Source: a virus. Taken from it: a DNA stretch of 22,062 nucleotides. Positions within the stretch are counted from its first letter, which is position 1, and the number at the start of each line of letters is the position of its first letter. The notes under the pieces are model-generated. The model did not search any database, was not told the origin of the DNA, and saw only the letters and a program-made list of their open reading frames with translations. Shown here in pieces: positions 7,931 through 20,614 of the stretch. A program made the position numbers and the translations under genes. The stretch covers positions 1-22,062 of IMG/VR virus record IMGVR_UViG_3300006920_000291; one strand, written 5' to 3'.

Positions 7931-8587
7931 ATGAAAAAAGTATTCAAATCCCTTCTAGGGGCAACTATCGTATCACTAGCTATGATTACTTCAAGCACTG
8001 CTTCTGCGGAGAATCTCACAATTCGGGAAGGTCAAGCAGGGGAGCCAATCATTCAGTTTGAAGGTGGCTATATTAAAGGTACTGCGAAGCGATTGAAACA
8101 GATTGCCGAGATTTCTGGTGCTAAAGTAGTTGAGTTTAATTCCAGTGGAGGTTATGCGGAAGAAGGTTATATGGCTCACGACGTTATGCTTGAGCTGGGC
8201 CTTAGCGGATTTGTACCCCGTGGTAAAACCTGCATGTCTGCATGTGCTGTTACGTTCCTCGGGGCAAAGCATAAAGATATTCAAGGTGTCCTAGGTTTTC
8301 ATCCCTCTTACATTGATGGTACTGCACCTGATGAGTTTAAGCTTGGCCAGATTGACGGTATGAATGAAACATTCTTCCTGTTGGAGAATGGTGTTTCAGG
8401 CCAGTTTATCCGTGCTTTTATGTACCTTGGTAAACCTAGCGTGTTTGCTGTGTTTACTGATAATGATGAATTTAGTAAAATCTTCGACGGTAGCTTTACA
8501 GATGTAGAGCTTATCGACCTATTCTGGAGCTTAGAAGAAATTAAGGCTTACCGGTGGCTCGTTAATGGAGGAACTTTCAATGACTAA
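7931..8587 (+). CDS. Secreted ClpP/crotonase-fold periplasmic protein
   Basis: Residues 1-26 are a clear signal peptide (MKKVFKSLLGATIVSLAMITSS then ASA before the cleavage site). The body matches the periplasmic ClpP-fold family often annotated as COG3904. It has VVEFNSSGGYAEEGYMAHDV (the oxyanion-side glycines), RGKTCMSACAVTFLGA with candidate nucleophile S103 between C101 and C105, and VLGFHPSY with candidate H124. A Ser-His serine protease or a binding protein of that fold would act in the periplasm. AAAGGAG lies at 7918-7923. It overlaps the channel-like gene that follows by eight bases, which suggests joint work at the inner membrane. Protease activity is inferred from the fold, not shown. 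Confidence 0.8.
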   Translation: MKKVFKSLLGATIVSLAMITSSTASAENLTIREGQAGEPIIQFEGGYIKGTAKRLKQIAEISGAKVVEFNSSGGYAEEGYMAHDVMLELGLSGFVPRGKTCMSACAVTFLGAKHKDIQGVLGFHPSYIDGTAPDEFKLGQIDGMNETFFLLENGVSGQFIRAFMYLGKPSVFAVFTDNDEFSKIFDGSFTDVELIDLFWSLEEIKAYRWLVNGGTFND

Positions 8588-9020
8588 GCGTTGGACAATC
8601 TGGACTGTATTTGTTACTATGTTTATCTCTCTTGGTTTTGGCGTAGCTTATGATTCCCATAACTTCTTGCTTGAAAACGATTTCACCTACATTTCTTTCG
8701 TAAATATCGCCTTACTAGTAGGTTTCACTGTTACCTGCGCTGCACAGGCTTTCCGTAAGGACTACACTACTTCTGATATGCAGTGGTTTGTTGCTGATGG
8801 TGTGTTGTCTCTTGGTATGGTGGGTACATTGGCTGGCTTCCTGATAGTCCTCTACTCAACCTTCCAAGGTCTTGATGTAGGCGACACAGAATCAATGAAG
8901 AAGGCCATCGAGACCCTTGCTACCGGCATGGGTACTGCTCTACTAACCTCTCTTGTAGGTCTAGTAGCCTCAATCACAATGAAGTTTCAACTTGTAACCT
9001 TGGAGGGGAAAAATGTCTGA
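8580..9020 (+). CDS. MotA/TolQ/ExbB-like membrane protein
   Basis: Start ATG 8580, with GGAGG at 8567-8571; the in-frame ATG 8565 lies before that site. The 146 residues have four hydrophobic segments at about 5-22, 38-56, 71-93 and 113-135. The last two carry the family pattern LSLGMVGTLAGFLIVLYSTF and IETLATGMGTALLTSLVGLV, comparable with the GllGTv.G and A...Ta.Gl helices of MotA/TolQ/ExbB. These proteins form pentameric proton channels around a dimer of MotB/TolR/ExbD. A TolR-like partner is encoded two genes downstream at 9383. The cytoplasmic loops are much shorter than in bacterial TolQ or MotA. Function in a phage is unknown. Confidence 0.75.
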   Translation: MTKRWTIWTVFVTMFISLGFGVAYDSHNFLLENDFTYISFVNIALLVGFTVTCAAQAFRKDYTTSDMQWFVADGVLSLGMVGTLAGFLIVLYSTFQGLDVGDTESMKKAIETLATGMGTALLTSLVGLVASITMKFQLVTLEGKNV

Positions 9021-9402
9021 TATGCTTGTACATAAACATATTATCCTACGAATTGAGGCTAAGAAGCCCCCAACTGAGATGGGCCTTCGGCAGTGGATGA
9101 TTGATCTAATCGACAAGATTGGTATGAATCGCCTTGCTGGACCTATCTCTGCTTGTGTAGACGTTCCCGGTAATGCTGGCCCAACCTGTGTTGTAGTCAG
9201 TGAGACTTCTCATATGTCTTGCCAGGTATGGACTGAACCAGACCCTGCACTAATCCAACTAGACGTATATACCTGTGGCCCCATTGACTATAATGCTGTT
9301 CTTGAACACATTGAGGTGTGGGAACCCACTAAAGTAGAATACAAATATCTTGACCGTGAATTTAATCTAACGGAGATTTCACATGAGGAAGTACTCAAGT
9401 AA
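9013..9402 (+). CDS. speD: S-adenosylmethionine decarboxylase-like protein (pyruvoyl family)
   Basis: The 129 residues match the small prokaryotic AdoMetDC fold. SETSHMSCQVWTE (63-75) aligns with the self-cleavage motif (xESHISxHTWPE) and gives S66 as the candidate pyruvoyl serine. LDVYTCG (83-89) aligns with the vDvFTCG catalytic cysteine (C88). The residue before the serine is Thr instead of Glu, and the later His is Gln, so substrate or activity may differ. Some phage homologues of this family are reported to decarboxylate other amino acids. AdoMetDC normally feeds polyamine synthesis. The gene overlaps both neighbours, between the TolQ-like and TolR-like genes. GGAGGGG precedes the ATG. 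The symbol marks family only. Confidence 0.75.
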   Translation: MSDMLVHKHIILRIEAKKPPTEMGLRQWMIDLIDKIGMNRLAGPISACVDVPGNAGPTCVVVSETSHMSCQVWTEPDPALIQLDVYTCGPIDYNAVLEHIEVWEPTKVEYKYLDREFNLTEISHEEVLK

Positions 9403-9979
9403 TCTAGCTTTTGTTGACCTGCTGTTTAATCTTCTTGTTGGTTTTACCTCTCTTTTCATTATTGCTTTTTTGATGATTAACCCAATATCAAAACAGGGTC
9501 AAGTTGATCCACCAGTAATGATGATGGTACAAATGCGCTGGGATGACAGCTCTGTGCACGATGTTGACCTGTGGGTAGAATCCCCAAATTCTATTGTAGG
9601 TTTCTCTAATGAGGAGAGTGGTTACGTATCACTAGATCGTGATGACCTTGGCCTCAAGAATGATACCTATGTTGTTAATGGCGAAGAAAGGAAAGTACTG
9701 CGTAACTATGAAGTTGTAAACTTTACTGCGCTACCTGATGGTGAATATACCATTAATATTCACATGTTCTCCTTCAAGTTTGTGGGAGAGGAAAAGGTAT
9801 CGGTCACTGTAACGATGTTGAGCCCTTATAATGAAGTATGGACTGGTGATATTATTTTAAAAAGGGCACGTGAGGAACATACTGCAATTACTTTTGTAGT
9901 TGTAAACGGTAAAGTTGTTGACTTGAATGACAAGATACAAAAGCCAATCCGTAAATCTGTAGAAGGTTCCCGTCCATGA
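9383..9979 (+). CDS. TolR/MotB-like protein with periplasmic beta domain
   Basis: The N-terminus LAFVDLLFNLLVGFTSLFII (8-27) is a single transmembrane helix with an embedded aspartate (D12), as in MotB, TolR and ExbD, where this Asp carries protons. The rest (about 40-198) should be periplasmic and beta-rich, with DVDLWVESPN, SLDRDDLGLKNDTYVV, LPDGEYTINIHMF and a C-terminal strand region. This DVDLWV-type domain with a TolR-like anchor also occurs in bacterial proteins of unknown role. It lacks an OmpA-like peptidoglycan-binding domain. The likely partner is the channel protein at 8580. GGAGA precedes the ATG; overlaps with both neighbours indicate coupled translation. Confidence 0.7.
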   Translation: MRKYSSNLAFVDLLFNLLVGFTSLFIIAFLMINPISKQGQVDPPVMMMVQMRWDDSSVHDVDLWVESPNSIVGFSNEESGYVSLDRDDLGLKNDTYVVNGEERKVLRNYEVVNFTALPDGEYTINIHMFSFKFVGEEKVSVTVTMLSPYNEVWTGDIILKRAREEHTAITFVVVNGKVVDLNDKIQKPIRKSVEGSRP

Positions 9980-10419
9980 TATATATTGTAGCACTAAGTA
10001 TTATTATGACACTTCTAATAATTTATCTTGTGTATGTGTCTAATATCAAGTTTATGATTAAGTTGGTTTGTTTCCCCGTAATGCTTGGGTTGTCTGGCCT
10101 AGCCGGGCATCATTACATTATTAACTTAGGGGCACCTCAGTCTAGAGAAATCCCAGATAAGTTTGAATACAGACACCATATGGTAATGGTAGATGATACG
10201 ATACTTGTTTGGTTAAGGGTGGACGATGAAGAGCGTTTAATAAGAGTTGCTTATGACAGAGAGTTAGCTAAGGCTTTAGAAGAAGCTAAGGAGATGCAAG
10301 AGGGCGGCGGTTATCCTGAAGTTGGGGGTGGAGAAGAACTTTTGGAAGATCCTTCAAATCAACGCCCATGGAAGGTAGAAGACGTTACGCCAACTGGGGC
10401 AGAATCGGAGACTAAATAA
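9976..10419 (+). CDS. Two-helix membrane protein, 147 aa
   Basis: ATGA overlap with the previous gene. Two hydrophobic helices (about 2-21 and 27-51) are followed by a soluble region (HHMVMVDDTILVWLRVDDEE, then a helix RELAKALEEAKEMQEGG) and a flexible Gly/Glu/Pro tail. No enzyme motif is seen. Its place between the TolR-like protein and the SbmA-like transporter suggests another part of the same membrane assembly. The next gene begins directly after its stop (TAAATG) with GGAG inside this gene. Confidence 0.65.
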   Translation: MIYIVALSIIMTLLIIYLVYVSNIKFMIKLVCFPVMLGLSGLAGHHYIINLGAPQSREIPDKFEYRHHMVMVDDTILVWLRVDDEERLIRVAYDRELAKALEEAKEMQEGGGYPEVGGGEELLEDPSNQRPWKVEDVTPTGAESETK

Positions 10420-11391
10420 ATGTTTCTTTTCTTCAAAACTAAAAAGTGGGCTGTATGGGCGTATGCTGGTGCAGTTTTTATTCTTACTATGATTTACCTT
10501 CAAGTTCAGGTAGACGTAGCTATCAACACGTGGTTCGGAACATTCTATGATATGATTCAGAATGCCCTGACCAAACCGGGCAGCATTACTATGACTGAGT
10601 ACACGGGCGGTTTGCTGTCTTTTGGCAAGCTAGCTGGTATCTGGGTTAGTATCGCAATCTTTAGTGCATTCTTCACTAGTCACTTCCTGTTCCGGTGGCG
10701 CACTAGTATGGTGGAGTGGTATCACTCTGTCTACGATAAAGCTTCCTCTATTGAGGGGGCTTCCCAACGTGTTCAAGAGGATACTATCAAGTTCTCACGT
10801 ATCGTTGAGAATCTCGGTGTATCCTTGATTGAGAGTGTTATGATTATTATAGAGTTCTTCCCTATCCTGATTGGTCTAGGCGCAGGTATTAGTGTCCTTT
10901 GGTTTGGAGACTGGGAATATGGACTTGTTACAGGAGCTCTACTTTGGAGCGTTGTTGGTACTGTTGCCCTTGTTATTTCTGGTTACTTGTTGCGACTTGT
11001 CGGTATTGAGTATGATATCCAAGCACGAGAGGCGGCTTACAGGAAGGCCCTCGTCATTGCTGAAGATGGAAATTTCCGTCCAAAGACAATCGCAGAACTT
11101 TATGAATCACTACGGAGAGTCCATTACTATAGCTACTTCCAGTACCTTAAATTTAACGTAGTACGTATGGCCTACCTACAGGCAAATGTTCTAACTGCTT
11201 ACATCTTCCTTGCTCCTGCCATTGTGGGCGGGGTAATCACCCTCGGGGTTATGCAGCAGATTATTAGAGCTTTTGGTCGTGTAGAGGGTTCTATGCAGTT
11301 TATTCTAAAGAGCTGGCCAACTATCATTGAGCTTCTCTCTGTAGCAAAACGTCTACGTGAATTTGAAAAAGAAATCAAAGCCAATTATTGA
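10420..11391 (+). CDS. SbmA/BacA-family peptide transporter
   Basis: The 323 residues align well by eye with E. coli SbmA from about residue 85 to the C-terminus. Examples are VDVAINTWFGTFYDMIQNAL, FRWRTSMVEWY (91-101), IEGASQRVQEDTIKF (111-125), VENLGVSLIESVM, RVHYYSYFQYLKFNVVRMAY and KSWPTIIELLSVAKRLREFE. SbmA and BacA are inner-membrane, proton-driven importers of peptides such as microcins and Pro-rich peptides. The phage version lacks the first 80 or so residues, including the first SbmA helix, but keeps the remaining core without breaks. Neighbours are a channel-like pair upstream and a ClpP-like protease downstream. Import activity is an inference. Confidence 0.85.
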   Translation: MFLFFKTKKWAVWAYAGAVFILTMIYLQVQVDVAINTWFGTFYDMIQNALTKPGSITMTEYTGGLLSFGKLAGIWVSIAIFSAFFTSHFLFRWRTSMVEWYHSVYDKASSIEGASQRVQEDTIKFSRIVENLGVSLIESVMIIIEFFPILIGLGAGISVLWFGDWEYGLVTGALLWSVVGTVALVISGYLLRLVGIEYDIQAREAAYRKALVIAEDGNFRPKTIAELYESLRRVHYYSYFQYLKFNVVRMAYLQANVLTAYIFLAPAIVGGVITLGVMQQIIRAFGRVEGSMQFILKSWPTIIELLSVAKRLREFEKEIKANY

Positions 11392-12121: not shown

Positions 12122-13174
12122 ATGATTGAATATAAACTGTTTGATTCACCGGGGCACGAGCTTGTTGTGGTAGCTTCGGATAACGATACAAACTTTCTAG
12201 CAGTTATTGCTATACACAATACTGAGCTCGGTCCAGCTCTTGGTGGAATACGTATGAAAGCTTACGATGGCCCTGTTGGGGCCGTTGTAGACGCCTTGCG
12301 ACTCTCAGAAGGTATGACCTACAAGAATGCTGCTGCCGGACTTCCGTTCGGTGGTGGCAAGTCTGTCATTGTAGCAGCTGAATGGAACTCCGAAGTTTCT
12401 GACCAGTTCGCTGAGTTCCTTAACTATGTTAATGACGAACTGGGGGTAGAGTACTACGGCGCTCCTGATATGAATACTAATAATGGTTGTATGTTTGATA
12501 TTCAAGAGTCTGGCTCGGACAAGGTTGTCTTTAACGAAGATGGTGGTGACTGTAGTGAATCTACTGCTTATGGTGTTCTTCAAAGTTTACTTGCTTTACA
12601 AACCTTTAGCAATATTGAAGATGCCTCTAAGATGACAGTTAACATTGAAGGTCTCGGTAAAGTCGGTGCTCGTCTTGCTAAGTACTGTAAGGATGCTGGC
12701 TTTGATGTTTGTGTATCTGACATTGACAAGGATAAAGCACTTGCTATGGCTTCTTATCATGGTTACGCTTTTGCTGCTCCAGAGGACATTAGTTATCTCC
12801 CCGGTGTATACTGCCCTTGTGCTGTTGGTGAAACTGTAACAAAGGAATGGATTAAAGATACAGAGGCTTTTGCAGTTTGTGGAGCAGCCAATAATCAGTT
12901 GGATAAGATTGATACGGGTAAGTTCCTTGCTATTAACAACATTCTGTATATTCCTGACTTTATCGCTAATGCCGGGGGTGTTATCTCTGTCGGTGTAGCT
13001 GTCGAGAACGGTTTAAACTCTGGGTTTGGTCTTGAAAACCCCCATGTACTTGAACGTGTAGAGTTTATTCGTTCACAAGCACGAGCTATTCTCATGGCTC
13101 AAACAACTAATATTGAAACAAGAAACGCACAGTTACTCGCCATTAAGGCTGTGCAATCAAGTTTGGAGAAATAA
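12122..13174 (+). CDS. Leucine dehydrogenase-like amino-acid dehydrogenase
   Basis: The 350 residues are close to Bacillus leucine dehydrogenase (about 364-366). LGPALGGIRM (36-45), GMTYKNAAAGLPFGGGKSVI with K68 (substrate carboxylate) and K80 (catalytic), and APDMNT with D116 are all kept at near-identical positions. The NAD domain shows EGLGKVG (176-182), the D200 acid for NAD ribose, CGAANNQL, and IPDFIANAGGVISV. The family reversibly deaminates Leu, Val and Ile to 2-oxoacids with NADH and ammonia. The C-terminus is about 15 residues shorter. It starts five bases after the ClpP-like stop. Exact substrate is uncertain: Glu/Leu/Phe/Val dehydrogenases share this fold. Confidence 0.87.
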   Translation: MIEYKLFDSPGHELVVVASDNDTNFLAVIAIHNTELGPALGGIRMKAYDGPVGAVVDALRLSEGMTYKNAAAGLPFGGGKSVIVAAEWNSEVSDQFAEFLNYVNDELGVEYYGAPDMNTNNGCMFDIQESGSDKVVFNEDGGDCSESTAYGVLQSLLALQTFSNIEDASKMTVNIEGLGKVGARLAKYCKDAGFDVCVSDIDKDKALAMASYHGYAFAAPEDISYLPGVYCPCAVGETVTKEWIKDTEAFAVCGAANNQLDKIDTGKFLAINNILYIPDFIANAGGVISVGVAVENGLNSGFGLENPHVLERVEFIRSQARAILMAQTTNIETRNAQLLAIKAVQSSLEK

Positions 13175-19283: not shown

Positions 19284-19811
19284 ATGACAGATATTAGTCT
19301 TCACGAAGGACAATCAGAGATTATCAACGATTTGTTTGTTGAAGAGAATAATAGATACGCTGTTGTATGTGCCTCACGGGGCTTCGGTAAGTCTTATCTT
19401 GCTGCTACAGCTGCTATGTTGGCTGTCCAAGAACTTATGGATTTACCTGATGATGTTCCCAACAAAAATGTAGCGATTATCGCCCCCACCTACTCACAAG
19501 CTGTTGATATTTACTACCCACTACTTGCCTACCAGTTGGGTATGGAGGGGTTCGCTGATAAAGCCTCTAGGGCTGCAGGTACCTTCTGGTTCCCCGGTAA
19601 CGTACAACTAAAGATTTGGTCGTATGAGGCTTCAGAGCGTATGCGGGGTACTGGTCAGTACTTTGTGGTGGCAGATGAAGTGTGCTCTTGGAAGGGTGCT
19701 GGTATAACCTTAAGGAATCTTGGGAGTCTATCATTCAGCCTTGTGTGTCTACTCGTTGGTCACGTAAGAACTCTAAAGCCTATGGAGCTAGCCCCGGTAG
19801 AGCGCTTATAA
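19284..19811 (+). CDS. terL: Terminase large subunit, N-terminal ATPase part (frameshifted)
   Basis: ATG with AGGAA at 19271-19275. It carries the packaging ATPase: Walker A variant CASRGFGKS (29-37), KNVAIIAPTYSQAVDI, YEASERMRGTG, and Walker B FVVADE (D131, E132). After SWKGAG near residue 140 the homology stops: the frame continues with an unrelated tail (ITLRNLGSLSFSL...) to 19811, while the expected sequence (YNLKESWESIIQP) continues in the -1 frame. The shift must fall after the TGA at 19676 in that frame, most likely near 19700-19706. An extra T making GGTTAT would restore GAG-YNL. No X-XXY-YYZ slippery heptamer is visible there, so a sequencing error or real mutation is more likely than programmed shifting. 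Confidence 0.85.
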   Translation: MTDISLHEGQSEIINDLFVEENNRYAVVCASRGFGKSYLAATAAMLAVQELMDLPDDVPNKNVAIIAPTYSQAVDIYYPLLAYQLGMEGFADKASRAAGTFWFPGNVQLKIWSYEASERMRGTGQYFVVADEVCSWKGAGITLRNLGSLSFSLVCLLVGHVRTLKPMELAPVERL

Positions 19812-20614
19812 TTAGTACTCCAATGGGCTATGATTATTTCTGGGAAATGTTTAACAGACAAGAGATTGACAAAGATTGGAAGAGCTACCACTACACTTAC
19901 CACGATTCACCGTACCTCGATGAAGAAGAAATTGAAAGAGTTAAGCTAACACTAGACCCTCTAAAGTTTGCTAGGGAATATACCGCTAGCTTTGAGGATT
20001 CTGGTAATAACGTATTCTATTGCTTTAATCGTAAAGAACATATCGATGATACTCTCCCTCAGTTTGATGCTGGTGAAGATGTTCATGTAGCTATTGACTT
20101 CAACGTAGGTATTATGGCTTCAGTTGTCTTTGCTATCCGTGGTAACCAAATGCACATCATTGATGAGATGCAAGGGCACCCTGATACGGAGACACTATCA
20201 AGGGCACTAACAGACAAGTACAGGGGCCATCGCATTATCAGCTACCCAGACCCGGCTGGTAAGGCTCGTAAGAGTTCTGCTGCTGTTGGTCGTACTGACT
20301 TTAGTATTCTAGAATCTTATAAGATTGTAACTCGTGCTCATAGTAAAGCACCACCTATCATTGACTCGGTGGCTGCTGTTAACAAGAAGTTCAAGAATGC
20401 TAATGGTGATATAGACATCTATGTACACCCTCGGTGTGTCAACACCATCAAGTCTCTAGAGCGTACTCAGTGGGTGGAGAGCAATCCTAACCTTGCTACT
20501 ATCTGTAAGAAAGAAGGTGTGGAACACTGGACTGATGCTTTACGTTATGCGGTAGAGTATATATGGCCTATCCGTGCTGGCTCTAAAGTAGTCACTAAGG
20601 GATTTGGCTTCTAA
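19682..20614 (+). CDS. terL: Terminase large subunit, C-terminal nuclease part (frameshifted)
   Basis: This frame (-1 relative to the ATPase part) encodes the rest of TerL from about YNLKESWESIIQPCVSTRW. It includes motif III-like ALIISTPMGYDYFWEMF, HDSPYLDEEEIERVK, LKFAREYTASF, and an RNase H-like nuclease with HVAIDFNVGIM, SYPDPAGKARKSS and HWTDALRYAVEYIWP, which supply the metal-binding aspartates. The first residues in this frame before YNL are not homologous, and no ribosome binding site gives an independent start. Joined to the ATPase part it gives about 443 residues, a normal TerL length. The nuclease cuts concatemers for packaging. Confidence 0.87.
   Translation: MLLEGCWYNLKESWESIIQPCVSTRWSRKNSKAYGASPGRALIISTPMGYDYFWEMFNRQEIDKDWKSYHYTYHDSPYLDEEEIERVKLTLDPLKFAREYTASFEDSGNNVFYCFNRKEHIDDTLPQFDAGEDVHVAIDFNVGIMASVVFAIRGNQMHIIDEMQGHPDTETLSRALTDKYRGHRIISYPDPAGKARKSSAAVGRTDFSILESYKIVTRAHSKAPPIIDSVAAVNKKFKNANGDIDIYVHPRCVNTIKSLERTQWVESNPNLATICKKEGVEHWTDALRYAVEYIWPIRAGSKVVTKGFGF

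Follow-up and report, generated by a model that had tools for sequence, protein, structure and literature searches.

What would a virus do with two membrane proteins resembling the channel subunit and the partner subunit of a bacterial ion-driven motor? This question is raised by IMG/VR record IMGVR_UViG_3300006920_000291, which is probably a genome fragment and whose whole 22,062-base length was analyzed here as the window. A preliminary description, made from the sequence alone, had proposed a TolQ/MotA-like and TolR/MotB-like pair within positions 8580–9979. Both open reading frames were confirmed, but they are not adjacent, as a SpeD-like gene lies between them, and the unit extends to a third gene at 9976–10419. 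We designate the three genes A, B and C, and together the module. The relevant features of the window are as follows.

7931..8587, + strand: secreted protein 5' of A (the "ClpP-fold product" of the preliminary description), with a signal-peptide-like N-terminal stretch
8580..9020, + strand: A, channel subunit of the MotA/TolQ/ExbB superfamily by sequence, 146 aa, four transmembrane (TM) helices, PF01618
9013..9402, + strand: SpeD-like gene (S-adenosylmethionine decarboxylase), PF02675 E=2e-9, outside the conserved module
9383..9979, + strand: B, 198 aa, one TM helix and a predicted periplasmic TerD-like beta-sandwich (invariant residues, AlphaFold2, VIA-align)
9416..9418, + strand: codon of D12 of B, the membrane aspartate (107/107 sequences)
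9560..9568, + strand: D60-V61-D62 of B, paired with TerD Ca1 ligands D40-L41-D42 in an alignment whose score is non-significant alone
9641..9646, + strand: D87-D88 of B, paired with TerD Ca1 ligands D78-N79 by invariance and by the register of the same alignment (score non-significant alone)
9976..10419, + strand: C, 147 aa, TM hairpin and probable periplasmic domain (C profile, topology, AlphaFold2)
10420..11391, + strand: SbmA/BacA-like inner-membrane peptide importer, PF05992 E=5e-122

A conserved three-gene operon in phages and bacteria

For A of the window, ATG at 8580 was favored over 8565 as the start codon on the basis of ribosome-site spacing. A and B are separated in the window by the SpeD-like gene, whereas they abut in most relatives; since the gap between them was below 100 bases in 44 of the 49 phage loci with a complete triad, the SpeD-like gene is an insertion. 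Genes related to it (cluster 31) were also seen near the module in loci L084 and L097. Elsewhere in the window, positions 12122–13174 encode a Glu/Leu/Phe/Val dehydrogenase-like protein, an odd cargo for a phage, and a similar gene lies beside the module in L013. In addition, the terminase-like large subunit (19284–20614) is seemingly split into two overlapping frames (19284–19811 and 19682–20614), which may reflect a frameshift, a sequencing error or an insertion remnant.

A tblastn search of 50,697 phage records with B of the window detected 27 records, all from Rhizobium or Sinorhizobium phages. These included the temperate phage 16-3, in which B is p040, and much larger genomes of 150–170 kb. 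When three divergent B sequences from viral contigs were used as queries, 27 phage records were found, again all from phages of these two genera. No matches to phage records were obtained by tblastn with A alone because A sequences are too divergent, and B served as the probe. A profile scan of IMG/VR detected 256 relatives, and 80 of these were retained; eleven loci came from another scan, which added nine new ones. Profiles built from eight sequences detected A in 96 of 99 loci and C in 93; the three loci lacking A are on contigs that end there. In a reduced set of 54 distinct phage loci (B less than 80% identical), 49 contained the complete triad, and similarity clusters showed a C-like gene in 54/54. 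Wherever all three genes were present, they occurred in the order A-B-C on one strand (49/49 phage and 65/65 bacterial loci), mostly overlapping or abutting. In the 16-3 group, other small or endonuclease genes interrupt the module. A, B and C are thus a conserved operon, and the co-conserved unit is a triad rather than a pair.

The module is not limited to viruses. A scan of GTDB genomes revealed 33 loci with B, most of them with A, B and C together. Some bacterial loci were on large contigs or chromosomes and, by inspection, had housekeeping neighbors such as tilS and dnaE. When genomes were sampled class by class, 38 of 289 from Alphaproteobacteria and 31 of 274 from Gammaproteobacteria contained B; these rates refer to species genomes of mixed completeness, MAGs included. 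In the class of a Desulfobacterales genome used as query, 1 of 147 genomes matched, namely the query genome itself. Among fetched bacterial loci, A was detected in 45/45 and C in 44/45, the remaining one ending at a contig edge. In a tree of 107 B sequences, no more than five switches between the labels phage and chromosome were needed, which indicates that viral carriage is old and repeated and that exchange between phages and chromosomes is rare.

Several Alphaproteobacterial MAGs had B without nearby A or C (L146, L149, L152–L156 and L158). By inspection, several of these solo B paralogues lie near PQQ-related-looking genes, and quinoprotein-like genes adjoin several other chromosomal operons. 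In L149, a TerC-family gene (8653–9138, PF03741 E 2e-26) is located directly 3' of the solo B, an arrangement that recalls the TerC-TerD pairing of ter operons.

Sequence and predicted structure of the three proteins

A of the window matched the Pfam family PF01618 (MotA_ExbB) with E=2.6e-4 and 21.2 bits, 1.7 bits short of the curated cut-off of 22.9. The family was matched by 47 of 48 sequences of the A alignment (best E 2e-10), and all three bacterial A proteins scanned (181–265 aa) scored above the cut-off. Two motifs of the MotA/TolQ/ExbB superfamily, GxxGTxxG in TM3 and the threonine motif in TM4, are both present; in the window they read GMVGTLAGF and GMGTALLTSLVGL, respectively. Residues G79, G82, T83, G86, G116, A120 and T123 were 89–100% conserved among 105 sequences. 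Searching the whole set of PDB sequences with an A profile returned ZorA (top), PomA, MotA, ExbB and TolQ, the exception being one weak unrelated row, the F1Fo c2 subunit. Consistent with this, an A profile that included bacterial members, applied to 400 ORFs flanking 25 ExbD genes, gave 27 matches, and the TolQ/ExbB gene was among them in 25/25 loci. The hhalign comparison with ExbB/TolQ covered TM3-TM4 with matched GTV and TTxxGL motifs (96% probability, E 2.9e-9). The proposal of a four-helix MotA/TolQ/ExbB-type protein was thus borne out by four hydrophobic segments, the channel threonine motifs and the PF01618 check, and the charge distribution fits an N-in four-helix topology. The short loops attributed to A turned out to be a property of the phage versions, as the TM2-TM3 loop has a median of 21 residues in phages vs 82 in bacteria. 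No PHROG family was found for A. Judged by its sequence, A belongs to the MotA/TolQ/ExbB superfamily.

B has one hydrophobic segment, located near the N-terminus, with D12 inside it. Eight residues (D12, W53, D60, D62, D87, D88, G90 and E110) were identical in 107/107 sequences from bacteria and from phages of several unrelated types. This invariance argues that neither D12 nor the DVDLWV motif (residues 60–65) is due to chance, and both features named in the preliminary description were indeed present. B has the single TM helix bearing an aspartate that characterizes the partner subunit of 5:2 motors, and D12 is predicted to be necessary. The absence of a peptidoglycan-binding domain also stood: no Pfam match to an OmpA-like domain of the MotB/ZorB type was found in 50 B members. 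The assignment of B to a TolR/ExbD/MotB-like family did not survive the same analyses, as PF02472 (ExbD/TolR) was absent from the Pfam matches of these 50 members, the B profile matched ExbD genes at E 0.16 or worse (non-significant) and the predicted fold is of another type. We rejected B as an ExbD, TolR or MotB protein. A PDB search with the B profile was empty, and neither B nor C had a Pfam, NCBIfam, PHROG or PADLOC family of known function. Twelve of 50 B members weakly matched phrog_1735, a large phage family of unknown function (best E 6e-7), in which positions 420–558 of 673 resemble the periplasmic domain of B. This sequence likeness hints that the B domain may also be used elsewhere in phages.

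An AlphaFold2 model of B, built with 43 sequences, had a mean pLDDT of 89 and showed a helix at residues 5–32 and a beta-sandwich at 45–182. Foldseek found no significant PDB match for the model; its rows were weak ones to peptidylarginine deiminase and DUF4425 and a few of unknown function from a viral library. Upon realignment with VIA-align, the top five chains were 3ibz, 2qng, 9a6r_B, 2qz7 and 2kxt (Z 9.2–11.2, rmsd 3.4–4.5 over 131–142 residues), followed by DUF4425 as the next family (Z 6.0). Four of the five are, by title or homology, TerD proteins or homologues thereof, and we identify 9a6r_B as the Bacillus TerD-like Scp2.

It has been reported that the Ca2+ sites of Klebsiella pneumoniae TerD involve residues 40–42, 78, 79 and 89, and 29, 82, 84 and 88 (PMC8779313). 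A profile-profile alignment of B with TerD paired W53 with W29, D60-V61-D62 with D40-L41-D42, and D87-D88 with D78-N79, so that columns of TerD Ca1 ligands fell on B residues that are invariant; by score alone the alignment is non-significant. Its hhalign score of 15.5 lay within the decoy range, with at least 10 of 100 column-shuffled decoys scoring higher, and searches for PF02342 (TerD) were negative both for the window record (E 1) and for 13 genomes that bear the module. As the sequence score was non-significant, and as the relation to TerD derives from one predicted structure, we limit the claim to a predicted TerD-like fold with coincident candidate ligands and do not claim membership in the TerD family.

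C is predicted to have two helices whose connecting loop is strongly positive (173 K/R vs 15 D/E among 100 sequences), a feature which indicates that the C-terminal domain is probably periplasmic. The AlphaFold2 model of C (pLDDT 82) contains three strands and one helix after the hairpin. It had no PDB match above Z 6.0, a result compatible with a known fold, and the PDB search with the C profile was empty. Two chromosomal operons (L219 and L220) carry a tandem duplication of C.

A putative ion-driven motor compared with known systems

We consider it likely, with some reserve, that A, B and C assemble in the membrane as an ion-driven motor of the 5:2 type that bears a TerD-like head as well as a third subunit, and we infer its stoichiometry, ion flow and role. 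Five A subunits would surround two B helices, and protons (or Na+) would pass D12 of B as well as the TM3/TM4 threonines in A. The resulting motion of the two B chains would then be transmitted to their TerD-like heads, which probably bind Ca2+, and relayed through C to a periplasmic or outer-membrane partner. The axle role of B is proposed because of its topology, its membrane aspartate, which lies where an axle subunit would carry one, and its operon linkage, and not because of sequence similarity, the comparison with ExbD being non-significant. The solo B copies of some Alphaproteobacterial MAGs and the absence of a recognizable fold in C speak against the motor reading.

An improbable alternative is that A is a leftover or a passive ion leak, for example one that depolarizes the host at lysis, or that it blocks host Tol/Ton by mixing of subunits. 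The compact, short-looped A would suit such an activity, as would a lysozyme gene found a few kb away in two records of 16-3-like phages. However, D12 and the channel motifs are kept across very wide divergence and B and C are retained. Besides, no role in lysis is evident for the copies on chromosomes, and many of those in phages are surrounded by genes of DNA metabolism.

The 5:2 motors listed in a review are MotAB, ExbBD, TolQR, AglRQS and GldLM (PMC9389320), and a recent survey of stators adds Zorya and various appended domains of unknown function, its text containing neither TerD nor viruses (PMC12505986). The GIT stator homologues of that survey resemble the module in having an Exb/Tol scaffold with other domains attached. 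The module shares with ExbBD/TolQR a small two-gene membrane core, to which A aligns over TM3-TM4 (GxxGTVxG, TTxxGL), and an adjacent gene for a third envelope subunit (TonB or TolA there, C here). It differs from them in that A has four TM helices vs three and B has a TerD-like sandwich vs the ExbD/TolR fold, and C bears no resemblance to TonB or TolA. The four-helix A and the membrane aspartate of B recall MotAB/PomAB; in contrast to these, the module lacks a peptidoglycan-binding domain and the large torque-generating cytoplasmic domain, the latter especially in phage A. With TerD, B shares the predicted fold (Z 9–11) and the Ca1-ligand positions on invariant residues (in the alignment that is non-significant alone), but B is membrane-anchored and periplasmic and has no PF02342 match in the window record and the 13 module-bearing genomes.

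Genomic context and possible roles of the module

In a phage, the putative motor may have an accessory function at the envelope in the course of infection or lysogeny, and its two leading uses would be support of the envelope or nutrition and exclusion of competing phages. We regard exclusion and nutrient/peptide use as near-equal candidate roles.

The commonest extra neighbor of the module was a ClpP-family gene (17/54 phage loci), followed by SbmA (11/54); ClpS was found in 6/54. The secreted ClpP-like product of the window, for which no Pfam family was found, had been suggested as the motor's client. Its gene (cluster 12) lies beside the module in only 5/54 loci, all close relatives of the window, and the product can therefore not be the general target of the module. 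The position of this gene is occupied in the 16-3 group by one for a secreted trypsin-like protein. Compared with the secreted ClpP-like gene, SbmA is the more frequent and more informative neighbor. In five loci (L039, L070, L078, L087 and L097), DnaK and/or HSP20 were located just 5' of A, and ClpS, sometimes with SbmA, 3' of C; these are related viral contigs, one of 328 kb, with proteostasis-flavored surroundings.

Such neighbors raise the tentative possibility of a Ton-like drive which, with SbmA, periplasmic proteases and Clp proteins, serves peptide uptake and recycling in the infected cell. Besides the ClpP, ClpS and SbmA counts above, a complete A-B-C was found just upstream of SbmA in 12 of 30 viral SbmA loci (kinship among contigs uncorrected), although SbmA occurs in only 4 of 50,697 phage records, and the secreted trypsin-like or ClpP-like gene lies 5' of the module in both the 16-3 and window groups. 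On the other hand, B was not found in 11 of 13 SbmA-bearing virus records (mostly fragments, in a set largely chosen without nearby B), and the 27 isolate phages with B did not overlap with the 4 records with SbmA. By inspection, SbmA was not seen beside bacterial operons, and there was no linked TonB or receptor gene.

The other candidate use, which we likewise hold only as possible, is an exclusion or defense device, that is, a Zorya-like sensor motor without a cytoplasmic effector that detects or resists the envelope disturbance caused by a second phage. The phage-related setting recalls ZorAB. ZorA headed the PDB search with the A profile, and the nearest named relatives of A of the window are ZorA models, the best match in PADLOC having E 4e-8 and NCBIfam ZorA_4 E 3.5e-6. 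The cluster's protease gene in Rhizobium phage RHph_TM3_3_14B begins ~100 bases past attL as annotated, and the cluster of phage 16-3 is a few kb from the immX genes; positions at attL and immX are typical for accessory genes. A part in inhibiting phages and in resistance to colicins has also been ascribed to the operon of TerD (PMC8123226). However, the module differs from Zorya in that A lacks the long ZorA tail, B lacks the OmpA-like peptidoglycan-binding domain of ZorB and no Zorya effector gene was recognized alongside. B and C matched no PADLOC model, and the combination of ZorB and effectors in one operon that defines Zorya was not found. The chromosomal surroundings examined were, by inspection, housekeeping rather than defense genes, and among the carriers are large T4-like genomes, whose lifestyle is probably strictly lytic.

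No description of the module was found in the open-access literature on phage ExbB/TolQ/MotA, TerD with stators or phage SbmA, and the paper on phage AP-16-3 did not discuss it under the terms tried. We give about even odds to the broader view that many Proteobacteria possess a class of ion-driven 5:2 motors not described before, which has a TerD-type head responsive to calcium and a third subunit dedicated to it, and that many kinds of phages have kept compact copies of their own. The module occurs in roughly a tenth to one in eight of the sampled Alpha- and Gammaproteobacterial genomes and is apparently unnamed. Known 5:2 motors are few (flagellar, Ton, Tol, gliding and Zorya), and the module would enlarge this set by one that has a third subunit and a periplasmic head of another kind. 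As it is carried by an isolate, phage 16-3 of Sinorhizobium meliloti, its role is directly testable. The module would be a case of phages carrying a 5:2 motor and, if this reading is true, viruses possess a molecular motor of their own with which mechanical work is done on the envelope of the host.
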